64,000 nt of DNA. It comes from a virus. Below are positions 12,346 to 40,900 of this stretch, in pieces. The stretch is taken from positions 62,001-126,000 of IMG/VR virus record IMGVR_UViG_3300033388_005412; one strand, given 5' to 3'. Every line of letters starts with the position of its first letter. The first letter of the stretch is position 1. The notes beneath the pieces are model-generated. The model was given only the letters and a program-made list of their open reading frames with translations, searched no databases and was not told the DNA's origin. A program made the translations under genes and the position numbers.

Positions 12346-12831
12346 CTATGTGTAAGGATATCCCCGCCAATCAGCTTTCAACGGCCCAAGCCTTAATCGC
12401 GGAAATACCCGATCTCTCCCTATACAATCTATAATTTCCAAATCAAATTCATCAACATCTTTAACCTTACTCATAAACTCATTAAAACCCTTTCTGGATT
12501 TCAATATGCCGTTCCACCAATGTTTTTTATAATAAAATCTCTCAAACATTTCACCAACAAGAACACACCCAAGTGTGTGTGTATCTACAATTCCAGTATG
12601 TATAATAATTCCTTTTCTTCCTGGGACATTCATAATTTCAAAATATCTTTTATATTTACCCCATGTCCGGCGTTTACAGTGATAGGTTTCGGACGGTATA
12701 CAAGATTTGTTTTGTTTATTTTGCCGCCAAGGGAGCTCCAATGTAAGCGCGAACGGGGTATCACCGTCTATAAAATTACCATATGTTGCTTCACTGTTTT
12801 CAGCGACCCGTTTAATTGTTAATTTCTTCAT
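12346..12831 (-). CDS. DUF5675-family protein
   Basis: This is a 161-residue protein with the DUF5675 pattern: L-x-L-E-x-P-W near residues 30-36, SCIPSETY (~43-50), NVPGRKGIIIHTG (~68-80) and GCVLVG (~88-93). The His and Cys in the last two blocks are the conserved polar residues. Members are common in phages and often neighbour lysis genes; biochemistry is not established to my knowledge. The stop of the gene is close to the 69-aa gene and its start overlaps the thermonuclease stop by ATGA. Confidence 0.8.
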   Translation of the reverse strand: MKKLTIKRVAENSEATYGNFIDGDTPFALTLELPWRQNKQNKSCIPSETYHCKRRTWGKYKRYFEIMNVPGRKGIIIHTGIVDTHTLGCVLVGEMFERFYYKKHWWNGILKSRKGFNEFMSKVKDVDEFDLEIIDCIGRDRVFPRLRLGPLKADWRGYPYT

Positions 12832-13205
12832 TTTTTACCCCCGAAGTATTCCTTCCCTAATTTCAATTTAATCATTTCTTTCACTATGCTTTTGCCACCC
12901 ATAAAAATATCGGCCAGCCACCGTCCATACTTACCTTTACCATAAACCTCAAGAGTGAATATTTTATCTTTTAATTTTCTACGCAGCCAGTTTCTGACTT
13001 TCAAGCCCATCTCCTTTTCTTTTTTGTCTTTTGTTCTAATCTCAGGCGTATCTATTCCAAAAAGACGAAGTTTAATTTTATTAAAACCAACATGAAACCC
13101 CAAATCTAAACTATTAATGGAAATGGAATCTCCGTCATATATTTGTTTTTTATCGACAATTTTACACCTCTCAAATCGCCAAAATTCTTTAGGTTTCTTT
13201 TTCAT
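12828..13205 (-). CDS. Free-standing thermonuclease (SNase-like)
   Basis: The start ATG 13205 is preferred because GGAG lies eight bases upstream. It gives 125 residues and a five-base gap to the previous gene. The staphylococcal nuclease pattern is complete: YDGDS (D24, D26), LRLFGIDTPE (R47, D52, E55) and YGRWLAD (R95). These match the Ca-binding and catalytic residues of the family. There is no signal peptide, and the C-terminus is Lys-rich. The family cuts DNA and RNA with calcium. It is the second SNase-type domain in the window; the other is fused to the baseplate hub. It may be packaged, degrade host nucleic acid or act in DNA processing. Confidence 0.88.
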   Translation of the reverse strand: MKKKPKEFWRFERCKIVDKKQIYDGDSISINSLDLGFHVGFNKIKLRLFGIDTPEIRTKDKKEKEMGLKVRNWLRRKLKDKIFTLEVYGKGKYGRWLADIFMGGKSIVKEMIKLKLGKEYFGGKK

Positions 13206-13803: not shown

Positions 13804-14370
13804 TTATTCCTCCGTTATTATACCATTTTCCCATATTAATTTTTTCGATGATTCCTCAACTAAAGTGATTTCATTATCAATAATTGTCTGATAAATAAAA
13901 ACAACACTATCGGGGACATATGATGCCTCCCATGTCGGAAAATAACCACCAGTTACATTTTTGTATAGTGTCCAGTACTTCCCGTCAATGACATTTGTAA
14001 CATCTTTAACATCGATTTCAAGGGTCGGATCAGCCGGGACAGATGTTATAATTGTATAAACATCCGTGCCGTCTTTAATAACCGGCTCCTGATATGAAAC
14101 ATCCGCACCGTACTTTAAATTACACTCAGCCATTGAAATCGGGGCATGGGTTGAGAAAAAAACCTTTTTCGATGAAACAGGCTTTGTTTCTAAATCAAAC
14201 AACCCGGCACCACTGTTTAACAAACCCTGAAATGTTGAATTCGTTGTTTTCCGGTTCACTATTCGTCTTCTTAGATTGATATTTGTTTCATCATCCATAC
14301 GCTCAATACTAAACAACGCGGCGATCTCGTCGAGCGGCCCCCAAATATTCATTAATTTAACACTAGCCAT
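13804..14370 (-). CDS. Baseplate- or fibre-region structural protein
   Basis: This is a 188-residue protein. The opening contains GPLDEIAALFSIERMDDETN and an Arg-rich run, which resembles the N-terminus of phage baseplate proteins where an Asp/Glu-rich helix meets a Leu-rich stretch. The rest is beta-rich with many Asp and Thr. No specific family was recognised. The start overlaps the stop of the 50-aa gene by eight bases. It is probably a minor tail protein. Confidence 0.7.
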   Translation of the reverse strand: MASVKLMNIWGPLDEIAALFSIERMDDETNINLRRRIVNRKTTNSTFQGLLNSGAGLFDLETKPVSSKKVFFSTHAPISMAECNLKYGADVSYQEPVIKDGTDVYTIITSVPADPTLEIDVKDVTNVIDGKYWTLYKNVTGGYFPTWEASYVPDSVVFIYQTIIDNEITLVEESSKKLIWENGIITEE

Positions 14371-19186: not shown

Positions 19187-20386
19187 TCAGTCATAACAAG
19201 CGCTAACCAATTTCGTGTTAGAAATCCACTTAGTTATTGCGCCAACATCCTGATTTGTGTTCAAAGAATACTCAAAATAATCAATTAATCCGGTATCAAG
19301 GTTATATTCACCCGTCCCGAACTTTTGAATATCAACATCATGAATATCTTCAGATGTTTCCATTATCCTTTGAATAATTTCATTAAAAACCAACTCGGTT
19401 CCCATTGAAAGATTATTTATATAATTAACAACATTTGTTACAACAGTTCTCGTCACATCATCTTTTGTACCTGTTGGTGTTGCCGCCTTAAACTCCAAAT
19501 TAATGCTCATGCTGCACGCCTTATACGTCGGGGCCGAAGCAACACCGCGCTCACCCGCGGCCTGAGTCTCATTTATAGCCGTCTGAACGGCACTTAGGAC
19601 GCCATTTGATATAACAGGGCTTTCTGATATGACAAACACGCCGAATGTCCCTATGCCATACTCATAATTACGTATCAAAACATCGCTAACGCCCGGGACT
19701 GATAAACATGCCAATCGTATAGCCGTCAGGTTGGCCTTCTCGGCGCCCTTCATTGCATTAATTATTCTATATCTGAAATTATTATCAGATTCAGTATCGG
19801 CGCCTGTGGTTATTGGCGTCGGATTTGACACTAAAATCAAATCTCTGATAACAACATAATTTAAATCTGAATTATTCCAGACAGTTAACACGCCGCTCGG
19901 CGCATTTGCCGCCGCCCCTAAATATACTGATAATGCGCTGACTGTAACACCATCATCTGTTAAAACAATGTCATCTGTTGTTTTATATTCATATGTTCCG
20001 TCAGTATCCTCGATTTTAGTTAACGCCGGTATCACAATATCCTCAAGAACAACGCCGGTATCGTCATAAATCATGGTTTTTAAATCACTAACAGTTTTAC
20101 CCGACGCTGGATCAATAGTAAATTTAACCTCACCCAGTGGATAATTTGATGATGACCTATCCAGCAAAAACAATTTACCTATCTGGTCCAGGAATTCGCC
20201 GGTTGCCGTTGTTATCATGGACTGAACAAAACGCGAATCCAGATACTCCGATAATGAAACCAGCTCTGAGCTTCCGATCTCAAGTAAAGACCTTGCGATA
20301 CTCCCTGGTGAAAAATTTTTTATTTCAGTGTCGGTTAATAATCTATCTCTGGCCGACACCATTAAATTATCAAAATTCAATCCCAT
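19187..20386 (-). CDS. Baseplate J-like wedge protein
   Basis: This is a 399-residue protein matching the baseplate J/gp47/T4 gp6 family. The N-terminal helical part has the typical FSPGSIARSLLEI motif and a following TATGEFLDQIGKLF stretch, both usual in the family. The middle holds a beta domain with a short Ala/Thr-rich segment, and the C-terminal part (LVFNEIIQRIMETSEDIHDV) also fits. In the family it dimerises to form the wedge that clamps the tail tube to the fibre ring. It lies next to a gp25-like gene, which is the expected neighbour. Confidence 0.92.
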   Translation of the reverse strand: MGLNFDNLMVSARDRLLTDTEIKNFSPGSIARSLLEIGSSELVSLSEYLDSRFVQSMITTATGEFLDQIGKLFLLDRSSSNYPLGEVKFTIDPASGKTVSDLKTMIYDDTGVVLEDIVIPALTKIEDTDGTYEYKTTDDIVLTDDGVTVSALSVYLGAAANAPSGVLTVWNNSDLNYVVIRDLILVSNPTPITTGADTESDNNFRYRIINAMKGAEKANLTAIRLACLSVPGVSDVLIRNYEYGIGTFGVFVISESPVISNGVLSAVQTAINETQAAGERGVASAPTYKACSMSINLEFKAATPTGTKDDVTRTVVTNVVNYINNLSMGTELVFNEIIQRIMETSEDIHDVDIQKFGTGEYNLDTGLIDYFEYSLNTNQDVGAITKWISNTKLVSACYD

Positions 20387-20411: not shown

Positions 20412-20855
20412 CTAACGCCTTCGCATGTAAACATTCAAGGGCTCTCTTGCGTTTACAACCTCTTCGTTATTTTGTGTTTCAGACACATAATTCAAACCAC
20501 CGTTCTGAAAATTAAATGTAAACTTAACTCCTGATGTTCCTATCAACGAGACTATTTCAATATTACAAATTATTGAAGAATCATCAACCGGTAAAACAAG
20601 AACTTTCGCAACAATATCATAATCCCTTAATTTCGTCTGAATCTCATTCCTCATTTTTTGCCGAGTTTGCGAGTCATTTAACATTCCGGTATATTTATTC
20701 AACCCGATACCTAAGTATGGGTGAAACACAAAAGAACCTTCATACACCATCAACATATTTTTAACAAAATCTGAATCATCTTCAGATAATATAAAGTCAC
20801 CGCTCTCAATCATTGTCGCACCAGCCAACGTTAATTTTATATCTGATTCATACAT
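20412..20855 (-). CDS. gp25/W-like baseplate wedge protein
   Basis: This is a 147-residue protein of the gp25/W-type size. It has an N-terminal beta segment, the G-S-F-x-F-x-P-Y-L-G-I-G motif near residues 40-52, an R-x-E-I motif (RNEIQTKL) and C-terminal strands. In the family it starts sheath assembly on the baseplate. The baseplate J gene follows within 30 bases. A conserved intergenic box lies upstream. Confidence 0.85.
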   Translation of the reverse strand: MYESDIKLTLAGATMIESGDFILSEDDSDFVKNMLMVYEGSFVFHPYLGIGLNKYTGMLNDSQTRQKMRNEIQTKLRDYDIVAKVLVLPVDDSSIICNIEIVSLIGTSGVKFTFNFQNGGLNYVSETQNNEEVVNAREPLNVYMRRR

Positions 20856-20919: not shown

Positions 20920-21606
20920 TCAAAATAAATCCTTTAATTTTTTAACAATATTTAAAGCTTCCGACGCCCTTACCACCATAGTAACATCGGGTAAATGATC
21001 AGGCATACAGAATGGTGGCACGAACGCTTTCGGCAGCATAGACATCATCCCGCTTTCTTTTAACACCACGTTGCTGCGAGTGGGGAAGTCATATTCAACT
21101 ATCTTTCCGAAAACTGATATCTGAGACGGGCTAATAGTTACCAAACTGCCTTCTTCTCCATCACCGGCCGAGCGTAACGCAATAGCATCATCAGAAATCA
21201 ACACCCTGCTTTTGGCACCCGGGAACGACCTGATAGATTTATAGTTAGTTTTAACATTTGAATTATCAATCAACTGAGCAGGCTTCGCCGGTTCTACTGT
21301 ATCAGAATCATTTCCACCATCTTTTTTCATCTTCGGTGTAAAATACGCGAAATGTTTACTGACATCTCTCATATTTGATGAAACATTATCTTCATAAAAT
21401 AAAGTACAGTCAAAATCTTTATCATTTATAGAATAATCCATAATGCCGTTCATATATTGAATTTTGATATCAATAGGAACTTTAGAGAACTCAAAATCAC
21501 CGGCGGTCTTCGGCATAAAATAAATCAACAGCGTGTGATCAGGCAAGCTCCCGGGTTTTTCTTTTGATTTAATTATAAAATTAGAAAGTGTGATCTGCTT
21601 TATCAT
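20920..21606 (-). CDS. Small hub-associated baseplate protein
   Basis: The start ATG 21606 is chosen because AGGAG lies six bases upstream. A longer frame reaches into the hub gene but has no site. The product is 228 residues and overlaps the hub gene by 26 bases. The sequence is beta-rich: GAKSRVLISDDAIALRSAG and SLVTISPSQISVFG look like the strand pattern of an OB-fold or spike-base protein. The neighbourhood (hub, gp25, J) suggests a spike or hub cap. No specific family was confirmed. Confidence 0.75.
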   Translation of the reverse strand: MIKQITLSNFIIKSKEKPGSLPDHTLLIYFMPKTAGDFEFSKVPIDIKIQYMNGIMDYSINDKDFDCTLFYEDNVSSNMRDVSKHFAYFTPKMKKDGGNDSDTVEPAKPAQLIDNSNVKTNYKSIRSFPGAKSRVLISDDAIALRSAGDGEEGSLVTISPSQISVFGKIVEYDFPTRSNVVLKESGMMSMLPKAFVPPFCMPDHLPDVTMVVRASEALNIVKKLKDLF

Positions 21607-24600
21607 TTTCATCTCCTGTCGCGGCGCTAATTGTGTCCACAAAATCAAATATTGAATAAATTTTGTCCATAATATGAACTTTAAAACTATCCTTATACAT
21701 ACCTTCCAGGCCGGCGACATACGGCTGGCCCTTATATGTTAAACCGATGACATCTATACAATCTCTGCCCAGAAATTTTCCAATTGTCCAGCTCATAATG
21801 CTGTTTCCCAATAAAAAAGCCGGAATCACAACAGCCGCTGATATGCCTGTAACCCACGGTAACGCTGTCATTGCTGTGGTATACGCCCCGGATGCCGCTA
21901 TTGCCGAATATACGCCTGATGTTGCAGTGACCGCCACCCCAGCTGCTGTTGGTCCAACACCGGCAGCCAGTGCCCCCGATGCCGCTAATCCACCAGACAC
22001 AACTTCAGCCGCAACACCAGTTCCGACCACCCCAGTAACCGCAATCCCAGTTCCAGCCGCGGCCGTTCCCAACCCCATTGCCCCGACTGCTGCTTTCATA
22101 ATTCCTTTTCCCAATCCCATTGCGCTTCCAAAAAAAGGAACACCAAATCCATTCATAGCAGCAATTTCATATTTTATCACAGGATCCTGCGGATAAACAA
22201 TTGCATTCGGTGTAATAGTCGTTAAAAAACCTTTTTGATCAATTCTTTGAACAACCTGTTCAATTTCAATCGGACCATACATCCCATTATAAAGATCTCT
22301 GATAAAAATAATGTCCCAGACTTTCAACTGGGGCATCCCTAATAATGTTAATGACCCTCTATACATCGGCCGCATCATATTCGCCAGAACATTATATCCT
22401 ATTCTGTAAACAGTTGGAATTCGCCCACCCCAAACAGTTTGAACATTTCTTATAAAATCATTAAACCATTCAAACACCCCGAATGATGATGGGTCTATAT
22501 TATTCTGATATGAAATATAACTCTTCAGGTTACTGGTTTTAATATTATCATCAGCGAAAAATTCATGTGTTCGCCATGCACCGGTATTCGGGTTATCTTT
22601 TGGTTCCTCTGGATATCTTATTTTAACATGATTTGAAATTTCTTCAGAACTAGCTCTGATACTATTATCAACTATGTGTCTCAAACTATCAACATAATAA
22701 TAATTACGAATAGGCATATAGCCCCTTTCAATATTACCTTCTGAGTCTTTCAAATCATCAGGATTTTTAATACTCAGTGCGATGCCAGTTGCTTTACTAG
22801 TTTTATCCTCTTTTGTTTGACGAATTAAATTTTTATTTTCTATTGCATCCAATTGAAATTTGAATTTTAATATTTCTGATTTCGTGTATCCAACATTTTT
22901 ATCCTGTCTGATTTTAATCTTATCAACTGAAAATTTTTTAGTAAATAAATCGCCGGCAACGTCGCTCTTAAAAACATACTCCTGAATATCTGTGATAAAT
23001 TCCATCACTTTCTTTCTATCATTGGCTTTCATAACAATACTTAAACTATGTTCGGGATTTTTTTCAATATATTTATCCAATAATTTAAATATCTCATCAT
23101 ATGTTTGAGTTCTAACAATAGAACTAACAACATCCGCAACACCCCGGGTAATGAAACTTTTAATTCCGGCTTTTACCACACTGATAACACTGGATGACGG
23201 CCGGAATCCCTCTCTGTTTTTTTCACTATATTTACTACTAGGTTCTTTAAAAAAATCAGTCAATCGTTTCAAAAGTTCAGCACGATCCTTTCCTTTCTTA
23301 ACTATTTTTTCCATTTTTTCCCGCGTATCATACGCATCCGTATATTTATAATAACCGTTTCTAGGACCTAAATAAATTGTCTGTCTTGTTAAACCGGGAA
23401 CATTACTATTATATGGCAACACAGCCGCAATGTAATCTTCGTGATACAATGTTATCTCATTCAAAATTTCCCACAACGACTGATTACTTATTCTCCAGTC
23501 AAATGTATTATCTTTATATCGATTTCCTATATCTTTCGATGTCCAACCAAATAAAAATGTTAACCACCCCCCGAAAATATGATCCGTAAATGGTAAATAG
23601 ATATTTTCCAATCTAGGATCATAAGTTCCGAATTTATAATATATATCAACAATCGGATTTATTTTACTTCTGAAAAGATCAAAAAAACGATCTTTCGGAC
23701 TCGTGTAATATGATGTTGGTTCAATTTCAAGCCCGAATCTGGCCAGCATATTCGGACTGCCCATATGGCTTAAGCCTGTTATTGATTTCATAGCATAAAT
23801 AACAACATCACCATGTGTCTGCCCGGCACTGCAAAAACCAACATGATAATTGCCACCATCAAAACACTTCTCGTGTAATTCGGCCCCGAAACTCTGAGCA
23901 ACTATTGAAACTCTGTCACCTTGCTGAACCGACACGACCTTTCCAATAAAAAGTGTATCTAAATTCATTGGATTATTGTCGTATCCGGCCTTTATCATTA
24001 TCGTTGTGCCCTCACGTAATAGAAAACGTAAAACGGTCTGCTCCTGCAGCGTCTGTTCTTTCCTTATATTCTCACCCTGATTTGAATTTTTATCACTTAA
24101 ATTTCCAGTTATGTTACTGACACTTATTGTAGCAACATCCCCAGGTGTGTTTTTATTTGATATAACTTCAATACTTTCTATCGCGTTATATGTGTAATAA
24201 TCATCAATCATACCCCATTCTTTGTTGTCTTCTTCGATAAAATACAATTTTACAGTTGGATATGCACGACTCATATGAAGCGTTTTATCTTTTGCTCTAA
24301 ATCCGTTCGTATAACTAATACATTTATTTAAAAGATCTTCCTCCTCTGTTACCCCAAACTCAGATAACACATTCCATGACTGTAAAAAACTATTATCCAG
24401 CTGATTAATTGTGCTGATTTCATCTATCATGCGGTCTATTTGCCTTTTCTTTGAGTCAAGTGACTCAGCGCCTTCATCGGTTCCCAAGTCAGTTGTTATT
24501 TCACCTTCAAATTCTTGAATTAGTTTATAATATGCCCCGATTTTCAAACAATAATTTATCGATGCTACGTTTTTCAATAAATACTGCGATGTGTTGCACT

Positions 24601-27600
24601 CACCATACCTTCCCTTAACTTCATCGTCTGAAGAATTTAAAAAATTAACATATTTCTTCATCTCATTTTCATCATAATCTTTATTTATTTCAACAATTTT
24701 ATCCATAACTTCTTTTCTGGATTTGCCGCCTTTGCCCCATTTTTTACGCCAGTCTCCGCACAAAAGAGATTTTGATAATTTATCATTGTGTTTTTCAAGC
24801 ATAGATAATCCGGGGGCAAATTGCAATAACTCATCACGTTTATGCAAAAGCGCTATTTTAGTTTTAATGGTATCTCTCAATATTTGATAACTTGTATCAT
24901 TTTGAAATTCTTCTCTAATATAAAAAAAATCGGCCGGAGTTGATAGAAAACCGCTTTTGTGTTCAGGTAATTCCAAATCCTGATAATTACCATAATTGCC
25001 TTTCATATATAAAGGCAACTTAGGGATAAACTGTTCTTTTTTAAAACCGAATTTTGCTATTAATTCATCCTTAGCATATAAAATACATTTTATGGCCTGC
25101 TGCCTTAATAACAAATTAATAATACCGACGGCATATTTTTCAGGATCATGCCCTTTCGGCACCCCAATTGTTGGACTCCATACTGTTCCAGCTGCGAAAC
25201 CAATGCCGGCTCCTGCTAAACCACCAATAAATGTTCCCCACCCTGGAACAATTGATCCAACTCCAGCACCAAATACCATTCCACCTATAGCAAGCGGCAA
25301 ACCCGTATAAAATTTTAATTTTAATGCGAATCGTTCTTTTCTTTCTTTTTTCCAATTGTTATATAAGAATAAATATTTAATAGCATCAAAAATTTCAATT
25401 ATTTTTAATCCACCTTTATATCTTTTTAAAAATTCTCCACGGAAAAAACCCTTTTCATAATTAAACGGTAACCTAACATCGCCGCCTAAAATTAATGCTG
25501 ATACAACTTTTTCATATAATGGAAAATACTTTTTTAATTCAAAAGCATCACTGAAATTTAAATCATAATTATTTATTTGTTCAGTCGCCCAGTCCATTGT
25601 CATGTGACCATATGGCACATCAATTTCGGAACCATATCCAACAAAAAAGAATAATCTCAAAATCATAGCTCGCATATTCTGCATAGCTCTACCGTATATG
25701 TAACTGTCTTTCTCATTATCTTCCGGTAATCTATATTCAGTTATAAGTTTTTTCTTAACATCTTCGATTAAATTATCATCAAAGAAATTCGACGGCACAA
25801 GTCTTTCATATTCCGTCATGTCAATATCAGACTGAACCAGTCGTAACGTCAGATTCCACCACCCTGGTTTGCCTTTAATTGTCTCACATACAAAATCCTT
25901 AAATAATACACGAGTTATGCCCAATACTTTAAAAAGCCCGTTATAATTCAAATCAGGCGGAACTTCTAAACTATTTGTCCTCGCGATAAGTTTTGAAATA
26001 CCAATTCTTTCTCTCAATGACCGGGAAACGCATGCTTTTTTAGATAAAGATTTCAGCACTCTCATCAAAGTTTCATTACATGTCTGCAAATTAACCTGAA
26101 CAACCCAGTCACCACGGCCCATGTACTGTTTTGTCGGCATTGTGTAGTTCAGCACCGGAATTTCGGCCATCCTTGTTTCCAATGACGCCGACATACCGGC
26201 TATAATAGTATCTTCATCCTCGGTGAATTCAAATTTATATCTATTGGTAAAACCATATTTAAGCTTTTTCTGTCGTGCAATCTGTTTATCCATTAAAACC
26301 ATAATTTTTTTTCCGGATGGTATCTTTTCAAATTCATTAACAAATTCCAAAAGTGTATACGGGCCATGATCTTTTTTTAAATCAGTCCCTGGTATATCTA
26401 TAGGAATTGAAATAGTTTTCTCGCCCTTATACGCCTCCGCGAATTTTTTAACACCCCACCCGTAATATGTTGAACCACTTCCATAGTAAAATAAACCAAT
26501 AGTTCGCCAAAATTCAGTCCATGCCCGCACAATAACATTTGTAACTTTAGTTGTCGTGCCGGGCCATTCCAGACTATTAACTAATTCAACAATTTTAAAT
26601 TGTATATCAGCATTTAATTTCAAAATATCATTTTGTAATGATTCGCGCTCCTCATCGCCGAACTCCGTTATATCATATCTGCATTTAAACCGTTTAAAAT
26701 CATTTGTCCCGACCTGACGCAGCCAATTATCCGGCGCAAGAAAATTAAAACCACTTTTAATCGTGGTATTTTCATTCTGTTTAGATAAAGAAGGAACATA
26801 ATTCATTTTGATATCAACATCATCGTCAATTACTGGAAGTCCGGTTAATAAAGGTTTAACATAATTTTCAAATGGTTTGCAATTTGATATATTTTTTGTA
26901 CGATTTATGTTCTGATTGCTGGCATACTGCATATCGTTCGCCGTTTCCGGATACTGTAAATTAGTTATCTGTGAATAATATTCAATCTGTTTCAACGCAT
27001 CTTCATTTGACACGCAAAACTCAAATCCCGATGAATACGGCGAATAATTAAAAACATCCAGCACCAAATTACATTGAAGTGACTCAGGAAACCCCGGAAC
27101 TGTCGACACAACTATTGATTGTAAAGCACATGCAAGCTGAACATCTTCATATATTCCAAGCTCTTTATATTCATCTATCATATCAGCAGCCACACCCGCT
27201 TTACTTATATTTGTTCTTTCCTTTTCTTTTTTGCTTTTGGCCTTTTTTAATAATTTTATATCATTTTCTAATTTTTGAATCTCGGTATTATATTCTTTAA
27301 ATTTCTCAGGATCTGCGGCAAACACATCAAGATTTGCTTTTTTTATCTTTAGTTCTTCTTCCTTCTCCGTTATTTCTTTTTGCTTTTCTTTTATATCAGC
27401 ATCAAAGTAATCAATAACCCCGGCATACGTGTCCATTACAACTTTCTGAAAATTTTCATCAGTTTTTTTAAAATATCCTGCGCCCTGATTCTTATCAACT
27501 TCCCTCTCATAAGACGGTGATCTGTATCTTCCGGGTGATTCCTCCAATTTTTTAGGTTTACTCCACGTTACATCAGGTATTAATAAACTTCTAATGTGCT

Positions 27601-28447
27601 GATTTTCAATCGGGAGAAACGGCGATCTTAAAAACTCAGCCAGTAATTTGCGAAAACTATTATCATAATCCTTCTCCACTTTGCCGTTAATATCCTGCAG
27701 CGATGGAAAAAATATAGTCAATTCTATACGATTATTCTGCTGGCCCGTCTTAATTTTCGGCGTGCCGGCCGTCCTAACCGTATTAATCGGCATGTTAACA
27801 TTCTGTTCCGTTATTGTTATCTGATCAGGTGGAACCGGGAGAATAACAGTTCCTATTTTACAGGCACCGGGAACTTGCAATTCCTCTTCAGCGCCTTTCA
27901 TTGCCTCTATTATTTTACCTGTTCTGGCAATTTGGGCTTTATAACTTTCTTTCTTTTCAGCGAAATCAGCCCGCCTGTTTTTATCAGCTAATTGTGTGAG
28001 ATATTCTTTATTACTAATTTGATCTGTTGACCTGACACTGTCAAACCCATTTCCTGATTTGATAAGTTCAGCATTCATGTTTTTACCATCAACATAAACA
28101 ACACCTAATTGACGATCATACATATCTTCAGAAATTATTGTTTGATCCTGACTTGGATCTTGCTGTAAAAACTCTATTTCTTTTCCAGCTAAATTATCTT
28201 TTGCCCATTGTGTTGCTTTTTCACCTTCTGGTGTGTCTTTTTCATATGCATCAACACCGATGGGCCGAACTACTACTGGATCAGCACCATCAAATGACAC
28301 CCAGTATGTATCACCATCAATAACACCTGTAGGACAGGGACGATCCGGATCTATACTAGGTACTATTTTACCTGTTTTTAAAGGAAAACATTTACTGATA
28401 TTTTTCTTATTTATCGCAGGATCGTATTTTAAATATTCTTCACTCAT
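21581..28447 (-). CDS. Giant baseplate hub protein with N-terminal thermonuclease domain
   Basis: This is a 2288-residue protein. Residues ~38-165 form an SNase-like domain with DGDT (D44, D46), R61, D66, E69 and R112 in the family positions; only the usual Pro of D-T-P-E is Tyr. Residues ~195-300 look like a tail-protein domain (PVPPDQITITEQN). Residues ~1046-1100 are a glycine-zipper hydrophobic segment. Residues ~1400-2080 fit a gpD/gp27-type hub (TLFIGKVVSVQQGDRVSIVA). The end, ~2103-2218, is Ala/Gly-rich and membrane-like. Hub proteins in the family form the central ring and meet the spike. The nuclease may act at the host surface or on entering DNA; this is inference. Its start overlaps a 62-aa gene by ATGA. 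Confidence 0.82.
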   Translation of the reverse strand: MSEEYLKYDPAINKKNISKCFPLKTGKIVPSIDPDRPCPTGVIDGDTYWVSFDGADPVVVRPIGVDAYEKDTPEGEKATQWAKDNLAGKEIEFLQQDPSQDQTIISEDMYDRQLGVVYVDGKNMNAELIKSGNGFDSVRSTDQISNKEYLTQLADKNRRADFAEKKESYKAQIARTGKIIEAMKGAEEELQVPGACKIGTVILPVPPDQITITEQNVNMPINTVRTAGTPKIKTGQQNNRIELTIFFPSLQDINGKVEKDYDNSFRKLLAEFLRSPFLPIENQHIRSLLIPDVTWSKPKKLEESPGRYRSPSYEREVDKNQGAGYFKKTDENFQKVVMDTYAGVIDYFDADIKEKQKEITEKEEELKIKKANLDVFAADPEKFKEYNTEIQKLENDIKLLKKAKSKKEKERTNISKAGVAADMIDEYKELGIYEDVQLACALQSIVVSTVPGFPESLQCNLVLDVFNYSPYSSGFEFCVSNEDALKQIEYYSQITNLQYPETANDMQYASNQNINRTKNISNCKPFENYVKPLLTGLPVIDDDVDIKMNYVPSLSKQNENTTIKSGFNFLAPDNWLRQVGTNDFKRFKCRYDITEFGDEERESLQNDILKLNADIQFKIVELVNSLEWPGTTTKVTNVIVRAWTEFWRTIGLFYYGSGSTYYGWGVKKFAEAYKGEKTISIPIDIPGTDLKKDHGPYTLLEFVNEFEKIPSGKKIMVLMDKQIARQKKLKYGFTNRYKFEFTEDEDTIIAGMSASLETRMAEIPVLNYTMPTKQYMGRGDWVVQVNLQTCNETLMRVLKSLSKKACVSRSLRERIGISKLIARTNSLEVPPDLNYNGLFKVLGITRVLFKDFVCETIKGKPGWWNLTLRLVQSDIDMTEYERLVPSNFFDDNLIEDVKKKLITEYRLPEDNEKDSYIYGRAMQNMRAMILRLFFFVGYGSEIDVPYGHMTMDWATEQINNYDLNFSDAFELKKYFPLYEKVVSALILGGDVRLPFNYEKGFFRGEFLKRYKGGLKIIEIFDAIKYLFLYNNWKKERKERFALKLKFYTGLPLAIGGMVFGAGVGSIVPGWGTFIGGLAGAGIGFAAGTVWSPTIGVPKGHDPEKYAVGIINLLLRQQAIKCILYAKDELIAKFGFKKEQFIPKLPLYMKGNYGNYQDLELPEHKSGFLSTPADFFYIREEFQNDTSYQILRDTIKTKIALLHKRDELLQFAPGLSMLEKHNDKLSKSLLCGDWRKKWGKGGKSRKEVMDKIVEINKDYDENEMKKYVNFLNSSDDEVKGRYGECNTSQYLLKNVASINYCLKIGAYYKLIQEFEGEITTDLGTDEGAESLDSKKRQIDRMIDEISTINQLDNSFLQSWNVLSEFGVTEEEDLLNKCISYTNGFRAKDKTLHMSRAYPTVKLYFIEEDNKEWGMIDDYYTYNAIESIEVISNKNTPGDVATISVSNITGNLSDKNSNQGENIRKEQTLQEQTVLRFLLREGTTIMIKAGYDNNPMNLDTLFIGKVVSVQQGDRVSIVAQSFGAELHEKCFDGGNYHVGFCSAGQTHGDVVIYAMKSITGLSHMGSPNMLARFGLEIEPTSYYTSPKDRFFDLFRSKINPIVDIYYKFGTYDPRLENIYLPFTDHIFGGWLTFLFGWTSKDIGNRYKDNTFDWRISNQSLWEILNEITLYHEDYIAAVLPYNSNVPGLTRQTIYLGPRNGYYKYTDAYDTREKMEKIVKKGKDRAELLKRLTDFFKEPSSKYSEKNREGFRPSSSVISVVKAGIKSFITRGVADVVSSIVRTQTYDEIFKLLDKYIEKNPEHSLSIVMKANDRKKVMEFITDIQEYVFKSDVAGDLFTKKFSVDKIKIRQDKNVGYTKSEILKFKFQLDAIENKNLIRQTKEDKTSKATGIALSIKNPDDLKDSEGNIERGYMPIRNYYYVDSLRHIVDNSIRASSEEISNHVKIRYPEEPKDNPNTGAWRTHEFFADDNIKTSNLKSYISYQNNIDPSSFGVFEWFNDFIRNVQTVWGGRIPTVYRIGYNVLANMMRPMYRGSLTLLGMPQLKVWDIIFIRDLYNGMYGPIEIEQVVQRIDQKGFLTTITPNAIVYPQDPVIKYEIAAMNGFGVPFFGSAMGLGKGIMKAAVGAMGLGTAAAGTGIAVTGVVGTGVAAEVVSGGLAASGALAAGVGPTAAGVAVTATSGVYSAIAASGAYTTAMTALPWVTGISAAVVIPAFLLGNSIMSWTIGKFLGRDCIDVIGLTYKGQPYVAGLEGMYKDSFKVHIMDKIYSIFDFVDTISAATGDENDKADHTF

Positions 28448-28632
28448 TTCTGTAGTAATTTCCTCTGGCGATGATCCATTTCTTTCTGATTATTTTTATT
28501 AGTTTTACGGCGATCCATAACAGATACAGTGCATCTATCCCCAGTCGCCGATTCAACTAACTGAGCAATCATGTTAGCTAAATTATTCGCGTCTTTGTCA
28601 GACTGTATTCTCACCTCAACATTATATGCCAT
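28444..28632 (-). CDS. 62-aa small protein coupled to the hub gene
   Basis: This is a 62-residue protein with a strand-like N-terminus (YNVEVRIQSDKD) then a helical part and a Lys/Arg-rich end. Its stop overlaps the hub start by ATGA, so it may control hub translation or act as an assembly partner. A GAGG ribosome site precedes the start and merges with a conserved intergenic box. No family was recognised. Confidence 0.7.
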   Translation of the reverse strand: MAYNVEVRIQSDKDANNLANMIAQLVESATGDRCTVSVMDRRKTNKNNQKEMDHRQRKLLQK

Positions 28633-28636
28633 ATTC

Positions 28637-28672
28637 CTCTATATATACTATTATATTTAACACACATTTATC
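28637..28672 (-). promoter_or_regulatory. Intergenic box related to the other 35-base boxes
   Basis: On the minus strand it reads GATAAATG, then AT-rich sequence, ending in TATATATAGAG. The overall layout matches the four 35-base boxes, but it is one base longer. It overlaps the stop of the 2103-aa gene and the ribosome site of the 62-aa gene. Confidence 0.35.
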
Positions 28673-31600
28673 ATTTTCCGTATTTTTGCAATTTCTCCCG
28701 GACACTCACACTGTCGATATTATATGACGTAGTCGAGAAATTATTTCGTGTATACGCTTTCTGCCTGATTTCATTTTTAAAAACAGGCATCCTCGGTAAA
28801 CTTAAATATTTCTTTTTCTGTATATTTTCAAAACTTTTATTATTAAATAATTCTATATAAGCCTTAGGCAAATCACTTGGATTTCCTAAAGGAGTCTGCA
28901 TTAATTGAGCCCAATCCAATTCCGGTTTTGTAAAAGCATAATCCCACTTCTCACCGCCGTTGCCGGGCATGTGTCCCAATGACCCCATCTGATTAGGCCT
29001 GAACAAATTCAACGCAGCATATCCTAAAGCAACCATGCCGCCGATTCTACTTAAATTACCGGCATTTTTCCATGCGGTTTGCCCAAGTTTATTAACAAAA
29101 TCCTTTTTCATACATTGCAACATTGTTATATCCGAACCCTGTGTTTGAAAATTCAAACCATCCAATAAAAAAGGTTTAACGTGTTCACTGGCAGCTGTTG
29201 CTCCGGGATTTGTAATATTATGTATAATGGCCTTACCAATAGTTGAATTGCCCGATATAAAACTTTGTGTTACCCTATTACCACGACTCCAATAATCAGG
29301 TTGATCCATTTCCGCCGCAACCATCCATTCCCGAGTCCTTACTTTAGCATTTGGACCTAAATGTTTCCGCACAAATGCGGCCGACGACTTACCCGGCAAT
29401 TCAGCATTCCAAAATTCCCCAACTTTAACATCCAATTTCGCCGTATCGTCCATAAACCTCACATTCTTCGGCTCACTAAGATTATACAACGCATTTGAAA
29501 CCTCATCTGAAAGTGTCATAGTTTTACCTTTAACTTTCAAACCCCATTCTATCATCGGAGTTATTTTCCCCAAAAAATCATGTGCTTCGGTTGGTCTCCA
29601 CTTCTGGTCACCCATCAAAGCAATCGCTCTATTAACCAACGGTGTTATTTTAGGCGGCCACGATTTTGGAAATGTTGCCATTTTTTCCATAACCTTTTCC
29701 CATTCACCAGGACTTGATTTCATAAACGCAAATTCATTTCTGATATTTTTCTTTATAATTTCCTTTGCAATTTTCAATGGCTTTAACACACTTGCATGTA
29801 ATTTAGGATCATATGTCGCATATTTTGTGACATCGCCACGTGTAACTGGCTCCAATGCCATCGTAGATGCTTTACTATAAACACCCCTTCTAGTAAAAGC
29901 AGCCTGTGAAAACTCTTTCATACCCTTTGGAGTAATCGCCAAAAAAGCCTCATCACCATCGGAATCACCCCCTAATAATTTTCCGATAACGGATGATATA
30001 CGCATCATATCACCCTTTATAGTACTTCTTGCCCACGCCATGACAGGCGGCATTGACTCACCGCCCGTTGTTGGAAATCTTATTGCAACACCAGGCGCCG
30101 GTATCAATTCCTTTGAAAAGGCATCAGACCATAACTTCCTTATTTGTCCGCCTTTAATACTATTCAAATTGGTTTCCTGAGTTGCTTTAAATAAACCATC
30201 AACGGTCATATCCTTTTCACCTAATTTACCAACTACTTTATTAGCAACCTGCTTCCAATATGGGTGAGCCGCACCAACATGATTTTTATTTCCAGAAATC
30301 CACCCGCCATAATTTTTTAAATATTTCATAACAGAATCCATCTCAGACGATCCCATACTGGTTATCTGCTGCTTAATCATCTTAGCATTATTGTTAACCC
30401 AGTCTTTTGAAACCTGCACTTCAAAGTCCAAAACAGATTTCTTAGTATAATTTCCCAATATACCTTCCGCCCCTGTTATATATGGATCAGCAAACTGAAG
30501 TGTTCCAGTCGCGCCTGGTGCGGAAAATTTCATTCCAGGTGTTATTTTATATTCGCTCATAATATCAAGCATTTTTTGTAAAAAACCACCCGCACCAGGA
30601 GATCCGCTAAGTACCTTTTTCAATAAATTTGCCTGAGTTATCATTAATTGTGATGTTATACTGTGTTTTCCGTCAGTGGCATCAATCCATGGCTGCTCGT
30701 ATAACTGAACAACACTGTTCGACATGCCAAATCTTGTTCCTGGAACTTTAGCAAATGTCGCTTTCGGCGTTTTCACATATCCCAAACCAATTTTCTGAAA
30801 TAAATCGGCGATATCTCTCGGGACTGTTCTGCCCCTAATAATTTGTTCTGATATCAACTTACCCTTTGCTTTCAAATATGTTGGTAATTTCGAATATTCC
30901 GGACTATTTACATCATAAAGCGTTCCCTCAATCTCATGAAATGTTTGATCGGCTATTTTAGCCATTGAGCCCCATTCAGACGGATCACTATGCAAAAACT
31001 TTTTGGCCATTTTTTTAAACTCGTTACCCTCAACTCCTTTTAAAATACTATTAAATTTTTGTATTATATCAACACCGCCCGGTTCCACAACTCCCTGTGA
31101 TATCGCAAACTGCCTACGAAGCTGTCCCATTTTATAACTATTTTGCTCCTGTGCCATATTCAACAATCCTTCAAATAATTTAGAACTGCCAGGCTGATGC
31201 TTTAAAACATTTAAAAAAGAAATATTTAAAGGCACTGTTCCTCCGCCGCGGCCCATAAGCGATTCCAATTGACTAAACCCAAACTGCATATTTGACACTA
31301 GCACACCAGGTGTGAAATCGCCCGGCTGTTGTTTATTAACTAAAGGTCTAACAATTTCAAGAAAGGAAACATATTTCTTTGAAAAAATCTTATCGACAAC
31401 TGCTGAGTCATATGACTTGATTTCGCCAACCATTTTACGGGCTTCTTCGGCCCAGCCTGAAAACTCATCAGGTGACATTTCCCACGCTTTCTGATAAAAT
31501 TGCGAATACATGCTACCGGGTATTGATATTCGTCGTATCAATTCAGAAACAACCGCCCCTTTTTCAGCAGCATCCCATGTTCTATTCATAACAGCAGTCA

Positions 31601-34600: not shown

Positions 34601-34982
34601 TAGTATTTTTAATATTACCAACATAATCGGTCATAACATTATCAGCATCTCTCGTCAATTTCTTTACCGAATCAATTAACTGTGATTGCCCAGTAGTTAA
34701 CTCCGGAACCCATTTATCCAGCTCAAAAGTGGCACCCGATGTCGCCTGTTTTGTTATTTCATTGTCCATCCACGGGAATAAATTCGCAATGGTTTTTTGA
34801 AACTGACGAAGCGCTTCCGAAGACGGATAATGCAAATTATAACCAAAAATCTTCTTTGTATTATGATATTTCTTCATCAACGTATTCATAGACACACCAT
34901 ATATTCCCGCAAAGGCCGTTATAGAAAATAACCTGGCGCCTAAATTCACATCTTCTCTATCTTTTCTGCTAAAATTTTTCAT
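28671..34982 (-). CDS. Giant RNA-polymerase-like virion protein (two double-psi beta-barrel signatures)
   Basis: This is a 2103-residue protein. Residues 993-1004 read G-M-K-x7-K-G (K995, K1003), matching the beta-subunit motif with both catalytic lysines eight residues apart. A D-M...D-G, then P-x-x-M...L-G-x-I follow, as in beta. Residues 1635-1677 read R-F-P-T, then I-K-G (1655-1657), then D-S-D-G-D (D1673, D1675, D1677), as in beta-prime; the I-x-G to DGD spacing is the same as in Escherichia coli RpoC. Both barrels in one chain, beta type first, is the arrangement of YonO and crAss-like virion polymerases. Ends are hydrophobic (~17-35, ~1981-1995). It starts on a TAATG junction with the tape-measure-position gene, so it is probably a tail-carried polymerase. 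The comparison is from memory of the families. Confidence 0.82.
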   Translation of the reverse strand: MKNFSRKDREDVNLGARLFSITAFAGIYGVSMNTLMKKYHNTKKIFGYNLHYPSSEALRQFQKTIANLFPWMDNEITKQATSGATFELDKWVPELTTGQSQLIDSVKKLTRDADNVMTDYVGNIKNTIGKITDINKRFEMNYMTEGIKGFGASSIQDPLAGYKEIQQNIMKSTSGDVIKKWGENISDNIDDVNSIEYIKRRMVNKHPSLEVNSFDNDSLTSLPASILKEYKNSIREFLYHTQARNNKFRVEMRGVKQIGDIPSAIAKISDLSYKMLEFPKYVNDPNDIVQSVRLASTTNIKELLSDIPATGEISRDVVEKFRNKLGGEQLKRIDRVFKDANLLDVFGGKYTKTGKMLKGAGYIRPGYDNLMKYYQLIRKTASDIGANLDDITVNIEDFGRGGSKFVFDVALNKANGQSRHIKLPLNMPNKWATRFDPISPIKITSQAKIGDINYPNEQYQKLSANIHKYFLNLMATENKSLLIQGAEKDVQGMVDKGMRNITKGAEPVSGVDIVDWTRSLNVAPYKETLKSMGFMSGLEKTALPELQKIHAKFLERDSVLTYIDMSRDKIVVDGVKVDSIKDIGILNVIKTKNGAEIKEAIRFELTDVQKGKREFVAKISGLTANRERLATLKGSAKYKVVPVTSDELIKMLPQYLKGQVIGKNIQGDIDAFNTLLNKSKSRGVGDVIRFLQGSLDQQKSMKLNPGAHRSLSGEHLRTLVNNRIKYLEDLPQGPRGVRNFVDKLVGRLYKGMSWQKLYDSNVAHESVLDNLYAFLDNYLWSEKDWNIRKNRPNYMDAMEKMSPKFKPFVSGLVSPNKSIRGIQTLLPYDEVYPEFHGMPLHRALYQFFGSTTSIDVGRGRNIDWKGLKVDKTGRSFMPGLFEDEMLDGGLRNYMHRANVLITHSKETHEQQVWMDKKFLNRFGVVRHGGHAIVDTKIEKLAPGQFIKPNDSFGVLNGIAQHYKGNTEAVITSVKSYQGKTRIEFDYLHKAKAGMKVLVKGLTKGIIRETADMTDGVDMMVGHDTLKTVDPAGMLTIMLGRISAWAGKDANKKAAVVRAVKSTGISDKLNVVTHRQTGELVIKANAFKESIFAGNYDKALNSIVKVMKSLKMTQDVPSFSNITASAAGVTAVMNRTWDAAEKGAVVSELIRRISIPGSMYSQFYQKAWEMSPDEFSGWAEEARKMVGEIKSYDSAVVDKIFSKKYVSFLEIVRPLVNKQQPGDFTPGVLVSNMQFGFSQLESLMGRGGGTVPLNISFLNVLKHQPGSSKLFEGLLNMAQEQNSYKMGQLRRQFAISQGVVEPGGVDIIQKFNSILKGVEGNEFKKMAKKFLHSDPSEWGSMAKIADQTFHEIEGTLYDVNSPEYSKLPTYLKAKGKLISEQIIRGRTVPRDIADLFQKIGLGYVKTPKATFAKVPGTRFGMSNSVVQLYEQPWIDATDGKHSITSQLMITQANLLKKVLSGSPGAGGFLQKMLDIMSEYKITPGMKFSAPGATGTLQFADPYITGAEGILGNYTKKSVLDFEVQVSKDWVNNNAKMIKQQITSMGSSEMDSVMKYLKNYGGWISGNKNHVGAAHPYWKQVANKVVGKLGEKDMTVDGLFKATQETNLNSIKGGQIRKLWSDAFSKELIPAPGVAIRFPTTGGESMPPVMAWARSTIKGDMMRISSVIGKLLGGDSDGDEAFLAITPKGMKEFSQAAFTRRGVYSKASTMALEPVTRGDVTKYATYDPKLHASVLKPLKIAKEIIKKNIRNEFAFMKSSPGEWEKVMEKMATFPKSWPPKITPLVNRAIALMGDQKWRPTEAHDFLGKITPMIEWGLKVKGKTMTLSDEVSNALYNLSEPKNVRFMDDTAKLDVKVGEFWNAELPGKSSAAFVRKHLGPNAKVRTREWMVAAEMDQPDYWSRGNRVTQSFISGNSTIGKAIIHNITNPGATAASEHVKPFLLDGLNFQTQGSDITMLQCMKKDFVNKLGQTAWKNAGNLSRIGGMVALGYAALNLFRPNQMGSLGHMPGNGGEKWDYAFTKPELDWAQLMQTPLGNPSDLPKAYIELFNNKSFENIQKKKYLSLPRMPVFKNEIRQKAYTRNNFSTTSYNIDSVSVREKLQKYGK

Positions 34983-37900
34983 TATGTATTATAAACCATA
35001 ACACGATTGCTGCCGCCTAAACTCGGCGTTAGTGAAATCGAACCGTGAACACCAGCCCTGTCAAGCGCGATTTCAATTGTCCGCTTTATTTCCATATAAT
35101 TTTGAGTTGGTGTGTATGCTATGCCACCCGTCGGGTTTTCCATATTAATTGGCATAATACCCGGACTATTTGCCACTCTCCTGGCCTGGCGGTAATGACC
35201 GAGACCAAAATCATGAGACTGAAGACCTTCATTTTCAACTGTAACAAGTTTAACATCATCAATCGGAACTTCCGGCGCATATACCGCTGAATTAGGATGC
35301 GGCATCGGCGAAACCTGCTGTTTACTTACCACCATATCAATTGCTCTGCCGTCAATCGCGTTCCATTTAGTTTCAAGTAAATGACCCGTTTCGGCCGGAA
35401 CATATTTTAATATATTATCTCTTTCTTCCGGATCAGTTGTTTGTAAAAACGACACAATATGCTGTTTTTCCTGCGGGGGTGTGGCACGATACATATACGT
35501 CCATCCCTTTCCACTTTTATCACTGGGTAATAAACCCATCATCGTACCGCGGGCCTCGTCTAAATATTGCTCATCTCCTGTCATCTGATATAGCATATTA
35601 TTTTTGGTATATGTTAATTGATCAAAATATCTATTAATTTCACGACCCTTTCTAACACTCGCCGGTATGTATGTCGAACCTGTCACATCATTAACCACAC
35701 CATGAACTAATCCATATGCAGCCCCAACTGCCGCACCGGCTGCAGTACCAAGTCCAGGTCCGCCCACGAGTGTCCCAGCCCACGCACCGGGAATCGAACC
35801 TTGAAATGCTGTTGTTTTTGACATAAATCCCCGAGAATACGCATCAATCCAATGGTCATACGGCTCTGACCACATCTTAACACTTCTTCCATATAACATA
35901 TCTCTTTTGTATGCTTCCAATGGTGTTCTATATGGAAAAAACTTCCTGGAAAACGGCAAATCTGCATGCGACACCGTCTCCCAGACGCTTCCCATGAATC
36001 TCTCAGGTAATGAATATTCACTTGCGGCTTTTATATCCTCATTTAATGACATATTATTATATTCCGAATCAGGGGTTAAAACTTTTCCCCTAAAGCGATA
36101 TGGAAAAAGCTCTTCCTTCATCATGATCGCTTTTCTTTTTTTCAAAATTTTATTTAAACGATCTTCATGATCATACCCACCCATCATTTGCGCCTTTACA
36201 ATATCTAACTCCTGTTTGTATTCAGGACTGTATGGGCCCGTGTTCGCAAGAATATTTAGTCTATCGATATGGCTATACCCTTCAGTTCCAAAACCAAGCC
36301 CCCTGGAATACAATTCACCAGCCATGTGTCTAGCTTGACGAACCGCCGCGATGTCTCTGTCATATCGTTTTTCACTATATGTAGCGGGATGCATGGCCAC
36401 AGGTTTTCCACGCCACTGGTATTGAATATTGCCTTCATAAGTTCCGGTTTGCTTCATATAAAAATTAATCTCAGATATATCCTGTTCAGTCGGACCTATA
36501 AAACTATTTAATTCACTATCACTTAAGTTTTTAATTTTTTGAACAGATTTTCCACGAGTTCCTCTTATAATACCGTCATGCGCACCACTGATATTATTAT
36601 ATGCATCATACACATTAGCACCGGCCATTATCTCTCTGTTTTTACGATCTAATTCACTGGTTGCTCTTTCCAATCCTCTCTTGGGATATAGTCCCAAAAA
36701 CATACGGGTCACATCAGGCACACTCATACCCATCATCTCTCCCATCGCTGGCCATGTGAAATTAATATCAAATGCCGTTTCATGCCCCAAACCAGGAAGT
36801 AATAACTCACCCATTGGAATTTTCGAAAAAGGATTACCAGTTTTATACTTTTGAGTCATCCAAGACGGCATACGGTTACAATTATGAAGTAACATAAACG
36901 GCGTTGTGAATGATTCGCCTTTCTCAACTTGAATATCATAAACATTACCATTATAATGTTTAGTTTGAACATCAGTAACCATGGTAAATAAGATATCATC
37001 TTCGAAAAAATGTCTATGCCAACTTGATTTTTTATTATTTCGTAATTTCTTATTTTTTATTTTTATTTTATACCCATAGTTTTCATTTAATAATTTTACT
37101 AATTTTTCCTCATATTCTGATAAAAGAGTTAAATGATATGATCCTGTTGGTTTATATAAATGAACACAAGAAACACATTTAAACTGTAACAACAAATTTC
37201 TTAATGATAAAATTAAGGATAAAGATGGACTACTTGACTTTATAGCACACACATTGGATTTAATTGACCCATCGCCTTCAAAATGACCATGAAATAAACC
37301 CAAAATAAATTCTTTTGGGAAATGATATAATATAAAATCATCAATATATTTATTCTTTGCCCCTGACCCAAATAATTTTGAAAATAATTTATTATAAAAT
37401 GTAGAATAAATATCAATTTCAATACCATTTAAACTTGCTTTATATATATTTCCTTTAATATTTTTATTTTTAAACCATTTTAAAATATCCAATGCAAGAG
37501 TATTTCGTTCATCTTTATGTAAAGCAAATTTAACAACATGACCTTTTGAAGATGAAGATCCCTCACTCAAATATAAACCACAAATAAATCCAAAATTATA
37601 ATCTAATTCTATAAATCTATTATATCTTTTACCACAACCTTGTCCATTATATTTCCAAATTTTATCACCATCATTCCGATTATAATATTCTGACATAAAA
37701 TCATCACAATCTAAAGTTTGATAACACTCATCTGTTTTTAATATAGGATATCCAACAAAATCATATTTACTGATATCTTCAATATTTTTCCACTCTGGTT
37801 TATAATCTCTGTATTGTTGCCTTGTTTTATATCTTTTTTCATTAAAAGTATTATATCCGCATGTTCCACAAGATTTATATAATCGATTTTTAACACACAC

Positions 37901-40900
37901 TATATTTCGCTCTGGATGACTATGACAAAATTTAGTTTTTATAACATATAAGGGATGGTTATGTGTTAACCACACATTTTCAAAATTGTTATATAATCGA
38001 ATTTTATATACTTTCTCATTAACTAGTCTACTACTTTTTTTAATAACTTTTGTATAATCAAATCCAAAAACATTAGCACCTTTTTGTATATCTTGAATTT
38101 CTACAACTTTCATATTTTTAGTTACAATCATACTATCTTCAGTTAAACATATAGGATTAACAGTTTCAATCTCACCACTCATACCCCTTGGCCGCGGCAC
38201 AAGTCGGCGCCAAAGCTCTGTATTATGAACCGCAATACCTTCTGCAACATAATAATTTAAATCTTGTATCTGTAAATCGTACACATCAACATTTTTATCA
38301 TTTAATTGTTCAACTTTTTTAACTTTTATAAATAATTTATTATCATAAATAAAAGAATTTCCATTTTTAAAATCAGAAATATCCATACTTTTATCATATA
38401 ATAAATTATATATGCCAATAGATGACTGCTTATTCCAATGAATATAACTACTAATGCCCGGCTTTCTTATTGTCCCTTGAGGTAACAATCCACCACCTTT
38501 ATCATGATAATTTAAAACTAAATTACCATAAAAACCCAATATAAGTCCAATATCAAAAACATCCTTCACAAAATTAGACGAACACGAATGAAATCCAGCT
38601 TTCTTTATATTAGAATAACCATCTCCAAGTTGAACACCCTTAAAAAATTCCGAAACAATTTTTTTAGAAGATGATTTTATTATGTAATCTATTTTCTTAT
38701 TCTCAGCTCTTTTACCACATAATTGTGTAGCTAATATAGATAACGGTATACATTGTATTCTTAAAATTAATGTATTGTTTTTTACTTTTAATGTACCAAA
38801 ACTACCAAATTTAATTCGAACAATTTCTAATATTTGTTTTGCATATGCTATTTCATTTTTGTTCATCACAAAAGAAACTCGTCCTCCCTTTTCAACATAA
38901 CCCTCAGCCGCATACCATCCCAACAAATATGAAATACTCTCATCAATTTTAACATATCGATTAAACTTATATATTGTTACTCCACGTCTATGTTCCCGTA
39001 TAGCATCTTTAGCAATTTTATCAGAAATTCCATGATCTCGTAATTCTTTACGAGTATAAAAATTACTTGAAAGTAATTTTCGCGCCTTAATATATGATAT
39101 ATACCTCTGTTTATTTTTTATATTATTTGAATACATAAATTCATTATCGTGATACCTATCAGTATACTTTGATAAATCAATCACATATTCTTTCCCTTTC
39201 GGCTTTACAATTGGAACGACACAATAATCGCCCGGTTTGATGTCCTTAATATTTGTATCACACACCTCGATCTTGCTATTTCTTCGGGAACAAAAAAGAC
39301 ACTTCGCTTTATTTCCAGGAATACATGGTCTTGTATTTTTGTGAGAACTATCAATACACCTCGTTCTTTTAAATATCGGAATATGGTGTTTTGATGTTCC
39401 TATTAATTCAGTATTAATAGTGGCCAATTTCATCTTATATAAATCAGATGCTTTTTTATGAATTTTATCAACAACATTATGTAACTCGCCGTCTAACGAT
39501 AAAACTTTATCACCAACATTTACATCAATAATTTTTTTTAATCCATTATCGGTCGAAATATCAGTATCGGATAGAAAACATGCACCAGTTGGGTCGCCCA
39601 TATTCTGATCCCAAAATGCTCTTCTGAATGATGTGATGTCATTTGATGACGCCAATACCGGATTATCCTCAAACGTACGAGCGAAGCCAAGCATTTTTTT
39701 ACTCATTGTCTCGGCTCCGAAACCCCATAATCCCATATATTCAGTTAAATTATATAATTGTTTATCAATTGTTGATTTCACACCTGAAGCACTCATCGGC
39801 GCAACACCTCTCATTTCAGCGGTTCCCGGTATAAGCGGATTATCTCCGCCGCCTATTGTAACAGCACCGCCCTTAAATGCCGAAATATCGCCATGACCTC
39901 TGCCTGCATAACCCATTGACGATAATGCTCTGTCAACCTCTTCTTTATGCATTTCACGCGGCGGTAATATAGTGCGCCCAACCGTTGCGGCCAATGTTGG
40001 ACCAATAATAGGAAATTCTGAAAAAGGTACACCAGTCATTGGAAATGGCTGAGAATAATAATGACGGAACGCGTATCTTCTGCTTCCACCAAGAACATAA
40101 CCTAACGGATTAAAATCCAAAATCGGCAATGGTTTATATAAAAGCTGTTCAAGAGGATTTCCCAATCCTTCCGGAGTTGACTTATATTTTGATTTTGTCC
40201 TGGCAAACCAATTCGGTGTGAACATTTGTGTGCGATTGCCCTTCCATTGTCCACTGCTTAAAAGCCACCAACGACCTTTTCTATACGGAACCTCTTCTCT
40301 ACCGCTATATATTTCTTCTAACTCATCCTGAGATTTAGTTATATCAAATGCACCAAAACCCTGTGTCGCGCCCAGGCCGATGCCCATCAGCATACCATAT
40401 CCTGCTCCAGCCGGACCACCCCAAATTCCACCGATTTTTGCGCCTGCGGCAATTGGAACAACCGCGCCGCGCATTGCCCTCATAAACGGACTATCAATGA
40501 AACCAGGCATTAAACCTTCAGCATATTTGGCCGAATCTGTTATGCCCAAATCATCATTGACACGTGCAAAAAGCATTCGCCCCTTGACACCCTGTTCCGC
40601 AATCGCCGTGTTAAGACCCTCGTCAAATACAGTCCCGTCAAATAATGGATTCTGATCAGTTAACTTGTCGGCTATATCCCAGGCATTTATAGCTCCGGCA
40701 ATTGGTAAAACACGCTTCATCATCACACCTCTTGTGAATAAATCAGCGCCTGTTTTATATGCTTTCGGATCCAGACCAAGACCAAACCACTCGAACAATC
40801 TGGCTGATCTATTAATTGCGGCCTCAGAAAACACATTATTGAATAAAGATGATTTTTCTCCAATACCTGGCCAGAATCCATATAAACTTGTTACATCTGA

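Follow-up and report, generated by a model that had tools for sequence, protein, structure and literature searches.

Wall-cutting enzymes are the usual cargo of phage hubs, and the locus studied here raises the question of what a nuclease domain would do in such a protein. The locus lies in a 64,000-nucleotide stretch of viral DNA, here called the window, which comprises bases 62001-126000 of a virus record totalling 203,294 bases (IMG/VR record IMGVR_UViG_3300033388_005412). On its minus strand, a single open frame with an ATG start (21581-28447) encodes a baseplate hub of 2288 aa that begins with a staphylococcal nuclease (SNase) domain. An earlier note on this DNA knew of no described hub with this combination. 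However, the pairing had already been described by Hardies et al. 2007 (PMC2147016), who found that the homologous hub of prophage BtI1, likewise of gp27/gpD type, has an N-terminal staphylococcal-nuclease domain, considered the use of this domain "not obvious" and did not report its activity. The claim of novelty is also contradicted by two homologous hubs of plasmid prophages, which carry the plain annotation "nuclease". In the 0305phi8-36 hub the homologous accessory slot holds a transglycosylase and the C-terminus holds peptidases, that is, entry enzymes (PMC2147016).

The 2288-aa open reading frame is a real tail hub. AlphaFold models were built from the window and locus sequences only and, since their mean pLDDT was low (51.6 and 46.7), we used only the confident stretches of both. 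As the earlier note had proposed to check, structure prediction gave an SNase-like N-terminus and a gp27-type core. In the model, residues 1393-2085 have the hub fold of gp27/gpD/VgrG, a fold defined by two tube-like ring domains plus others, and align (VIA-align) with the hubs of Milano (Z 21.8) and Mu (21.5), Mu gp44 (20.0), phi812 (19.9), VgrG1 (19.2) and T4 gp27 (17.4). Foldseek returned 36 matches to this core at E<=0.001 (best 7e-9), in all or nearly all cases with chains of hubs, spikes or tail tips; the core of the window protein has an extra insert at about residues 1695-1911. The best Foldseek matches for the N-terminal part were to the monocin tube and to baseplate chains of Mu and Milano (E about 1e-3), and their likely source in the model is the region at about residues 190-330, behind the SNase domain. 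These fold matches of the ordered parts indicate a tail hub with tube-like and SNase domains in front.

At the sequence level, the match to phrog_20474 (E 8e-55), which covers parts of the protein other than the SNase domain, places it in the 0305phi8-36/BtI1 gp147 hub family. Furthermore, local matches at E 1e-12 link it to the hub of Acinetobacter phage ME3, a protein annotated as homologous to the hub of 0305phi8-36. Both the predicted fold and the homology to the annotated ME3 hub bear out the gpD-type core claimed earlier, and the two Gly/Ala-rich stretches pointed out in the same note were confirmed as hydrophobic (Table 1). A hydrophobic segment near the place of the second stretch was found again in about half of the relatives. 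The long insert near the N-terminus of the window hub contains a predicted helix at residues 351-400 (pLDDT 80-89).

The gene has the position of a tail hub, with tail genes on one side and wedge genes of the baseplate on the other. In reading direction, the genes for portal, major head protein and tail sheath (49199-52015) come before it, and wedge J (19187-20386) and a weak match to a gp25-like wedge protein (20412-20855) come after it, which is the usual order of head and tail genes, hub and wedge genes. Pfam detected no wall-hydrolase domain in the window hub, and searches for M23, Amidase_2, glucosaminidase and NlpC across the whole record were empty; an SLT gene, located outside the window, was the only wall-enzyme match in the record. 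No link was found between the downstream frame at 20920-21720 and the LT-like gene of Bacillus phage KLEB27-3. In the tail region, a 2851-aa protein (34982-43537, minus strand) contains an intein made of a splicing domain and a LAGLIDADG domain, with a separate Hint match upstream of it; the matches fall at about residues 1317-1375 and 1797-2219 of the protein, perhaps representing two inteins. A weak OspG_kinase match (21 bits against a cut-off of 27) was seen at 13804-14370 (minus strand), and the stand-alone SNase gene of this genome adjoins a DUF5675 gene at 12346-12831.

Table 1. Coordinates in the window of the hub gene, its parts and the stand-alone SNase gene
Feature	Coordinates	Strand	Evidence and remarks
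Baseplate hub protein, gp27/gpD type	21581..28447	-	2288 aa; phrog_20474 E 8e-55; homologous to MTATph1, KLEB27-3 and ME3 hubs
N-terminal SNase domain, hub residues 41-153	27989..28327	-	Pfam, fold match, family-invariant catalytic columns
Tail-tube/Dit-like domain right behind the SNase domain, residues ~196-300	27548..27862	-	Foldseek; conserved RIGD/VPP block
Long helical insert, residues 328-432	27152..27466	-	Alignment; window hub only, relatives without it
First Gly/Ala-rich hydrophobic stretch, residues 1049-1115	25103..25303	-	Kyte-Doolittle peak 1.72
gp27/gpD/VgrG hub core, residues 1393-2085	22193..24271	-	VIA-align and Foldseek
Second Gly/Ala-rich hydrophobic stretch, residues 2100-2225	21773..22150	-	G+A 42%; 4/126 residues charged
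Stand-alone SNase gene	12828..13205	-	125 aa from ATG; complete active-site motif; Pfam SNase E 6e-11

The SNase domain (PF00565) is far above chance. It is the only confident Pfam match in the hub (residues 60-153, E 1.4e-6, 29.1 bits against a curated cut-off of 21), and PHROGs matches residues 41-134 to the endonuclease family phrog_452 (E 2.6e-10). In the phmmer match of residues 42-133 to thermonucleases of solved structure, the catalytic residues of the enzymes are paired with DGD, R, D, E and R in the hub, so that D21, R35, D40, E43 and R87 of SNase correspond to D46, R61, D66, E69 and R112 of the hub. All six residues listed in the earlier note, these five and D44, are present. The predicted structure of residues 21-120 has the OB fold and superposes on 1snd, SNase with Ca2+ and inhibitor, with Z 8.6 and rmsd 2.4 (82 aligned residues, 26% identity); this Z score is moderate on its own and agrees with the sequence match.

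We also collected relatives of the hub. In IMG/VR, the full-length window hub and two sub-pieces of it used as queries found no relatives, whereas alignments of relatives did find some. Related hubs were found by tblastn in Moorella phage MTATph1, KLEB27-3 and ME3, and a search that started from the KLEB27-3 hub added plasmid prophages of Bacillaceae and Paenibacillus; further hub contigs came from pattern scans, for which a full alignment of 9 sequences was too divergent to serve as query. SNase domains are present in the hubs of MTATph1, KLEB27-3, ME3, two plasmid prophages and many metagenome contigs. In a clade from Paenibacillus, B. licheniformis and Alicyclobacillus, the hubs begin right at the core and leave no room for the domain. 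This clade is nested in the hub-core tree, and all SNase hubs lie across one branch from it (100/100); the exact places of the window hub and the ME3 hub are unsure, since both sit on very long branches. Another large protein of MTATph1 (28500-29800; L036) gave a weak SNase-like match (E 0.003) without an active-site motif. The label "endolysin" is attached to hub proteins of this family in PHROGs (phrog_20474) and in MTATph1 (CDS0032); these records, together with the plasmid-prophage "nuclease" entries, are really tail hubs.

The active site is conserved across the family. D44, D46, T47, R61, E69 and R112 are kept in all 22 non-redundant hub SNases. Among the first 15, for which 117 columns were scored, no column other than these six was fully invariant, the columns of D44, D46 and T47 being partly biased because several of these domains had been located by their DGDT motif, while R61, E69 and R112 are unaffected; seven more non-redundant hubs, reached via the hub core alone, also keep all six. 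The position of D66 (D40 of SNase, a Ca2+ ligand) is D in 13 of the 22, the window hub included, and N, Q or E in the other 9. In the three pairs where dN/dS could be estimated, the SNase region gave 0.25, 0.14 and 0.26, and it is therefore under constraint. In the least saturated pair it evolves faster than the core (0.25 vs 0.09). A homologue carrying the domain as a remnant had been named earlier as a finding that would speak against a nuclease. One of the 23 domain-bearing relatives is such a case: a 3180-aa hub (L040) with a recognisable but decayed N-terminal SNase copy that gives a weak profile match and no longer has the catalytic motif. In the other 22 the active-site residues are all retained. 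The maintenance of the active site in 22 of 23 members is new here, and it makes a working enzyme likely.

Judging from these sequence comparisons, the SNase domain is probably an active Ca2+-dependent phosphodiesterase that travels in the virion and acts while the envelope is being penetrated. The N-terminal accessory slot of the giant-myophage gp27-type hub would thus hold a catalytically competent SNase-fold enzyme. Since gp27 and its relatives assemble as trimeric hubs, the window protein would place three SNase copies at the baseplate centre. Tail contraction would carry them to the envelope, where they could cut a phosphodiester polymer encountered by the entering phage; the simplest candidate is DNA or RNA, whether on the cell surface, in the periplasm or at the point of entry. 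It is reasonable to infer, as was done earlier, that the hub could pierce the envelope and cut nucleic acid. A hub nuclease would sit close to where the DNA leaves the tail and would have to avoid cutting the phage genome, and we saw no device for this. The SNase domain itself, its full catalytic set, the hub fold, the order of head and tail genes, the six residues kept in 22 hubs, the dN/dS values and the entry enzymes in the homologous slot and C-terminus of the 0305phi8-36 hub all favour the phosphodiesterase; the changed D40 position in 9 of 22 hubs, the decayed copy, the SNase-less clade, the faster SNase region, the lack of a genome-sparing device and the partial bias in three of the invariant columns count against it.

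Some of these same observations would suit a non-catalytic module, structural or binding and comparable to Tudor-SN domains, which docks nucleic acid, a glycan or a partner protein. Such a role keeps some room because the D40 equivalent is often changed and one copy has decayed, and the motif-less SNase-like stretch in the other large MTATph1 protein could be read in the same way. Yet all 22 hubs retain D46, the general base E69 and the two arginines that bind phosphate (R61 and R112) while nearly everything else drifts, and for this reason a remnant is disfavoured and a purely binding role seems unlikely. Catalysis on a different substrate, the phosphodiester polymer wall teichoic acid, would place the domain among the cell-wall enzymes, which other hubs of the family also carry. 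0305phi8-36 uses the same accessory slot for wall enzymes (PMC2147016), and, among relatives whose host is known, most infect Gram-positive bacteria. However, the SNase is intact, although at a different position, in the hub of ME3, whose host Acinetobacter lacks teichoic acid. Furthermore, we know of no SNase-fold enzyme that cuts teichoic acid, and we consider this substrate improbable. The phosphodiesterase may, more tentatively, have a dedicated entry function that is ancient and general in the giant-phage lineage, with teichoic acid or nucleic acid of the host as its target where injection takes place; we hold this broader proposal as conceivable. The conserved nuclease in the hub's wall-enzyme place, left unexplained in 2007, suggests that a phosphodiester polymer is cut on the way in, and the conservation in 22 of 22 active sites makes this question testable with one purified domain.

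The origin of the domain was also considered. Intragenomic transfer, as proposed in 2007, would mean that the hub recently gained its domain from the phage's own SNase gene, the stand-alone one that lies 15 kb from the hub, and hub and stand-alone SNases occur together in two Bacillaceae plasmid prophages as well (pAD3 and pN497-ZHONG; in these two, frames near the stand-alone gene look, by eye, like an intein-interrupted terminase). But the domain of the window hub scores higher against the stand-alone SNase of another phage (14.3 bits) than against that of its own genome (5.3 bits), and the window's stand-alone gene has its closest matches among other genes of the stand-alone kind (33-37 bits). 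Hub domain and gene are not mutual closest relatives, a recent copy is therefore unsupported, and we rejected it as very improbable. SNase hubs are spread across the hub tree, and the domain therefore looks old; an ancient transfer is conceivable.

Comparison with known systems places the window hub among several relatives. The hub of BtI1, a B. thuringiensis israelensis prophage, is a homologue of 0305phi8-36 gp147 and, by its published description, resembles the window hub in being of gp27/gpD type, far larger than T4 gp27, with an N-terminal SNase domain (PMC2147016). In MTATph1 CDS0032 the SNase domain likewise stands ahead of tube-like and core domains and can be aligned with residues 44-288 of the window hub, but it has N at the D40 position and a C-terminal VanY/M15-like stretch, below cut-off. 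KLEB27-3 gp035 and the hubs of pN497-ZHONG and pAD3 share the SNase domain and hub core, and differ in an extra domain N-terminal to the SNase and in longer SNase loops; their wall hydrolases are separate genes downstream of the hub. The ME3 hub belongs to the same family and has an intact SNase, located in mid-protein (1126-1241) ahead of a peptidase M23 domain, and this different position may reflect a separate acquisition. T4 gp27, Mu gp44 and VgrG share the fold of residues 1393-2085 but have no SNase domain, and the T4 and Mu hubs are six times smaller; some VgrG proteins bear effector domains, an analogy only. The window hub thus belongs to a known and widespread architecture, first described in 2007.
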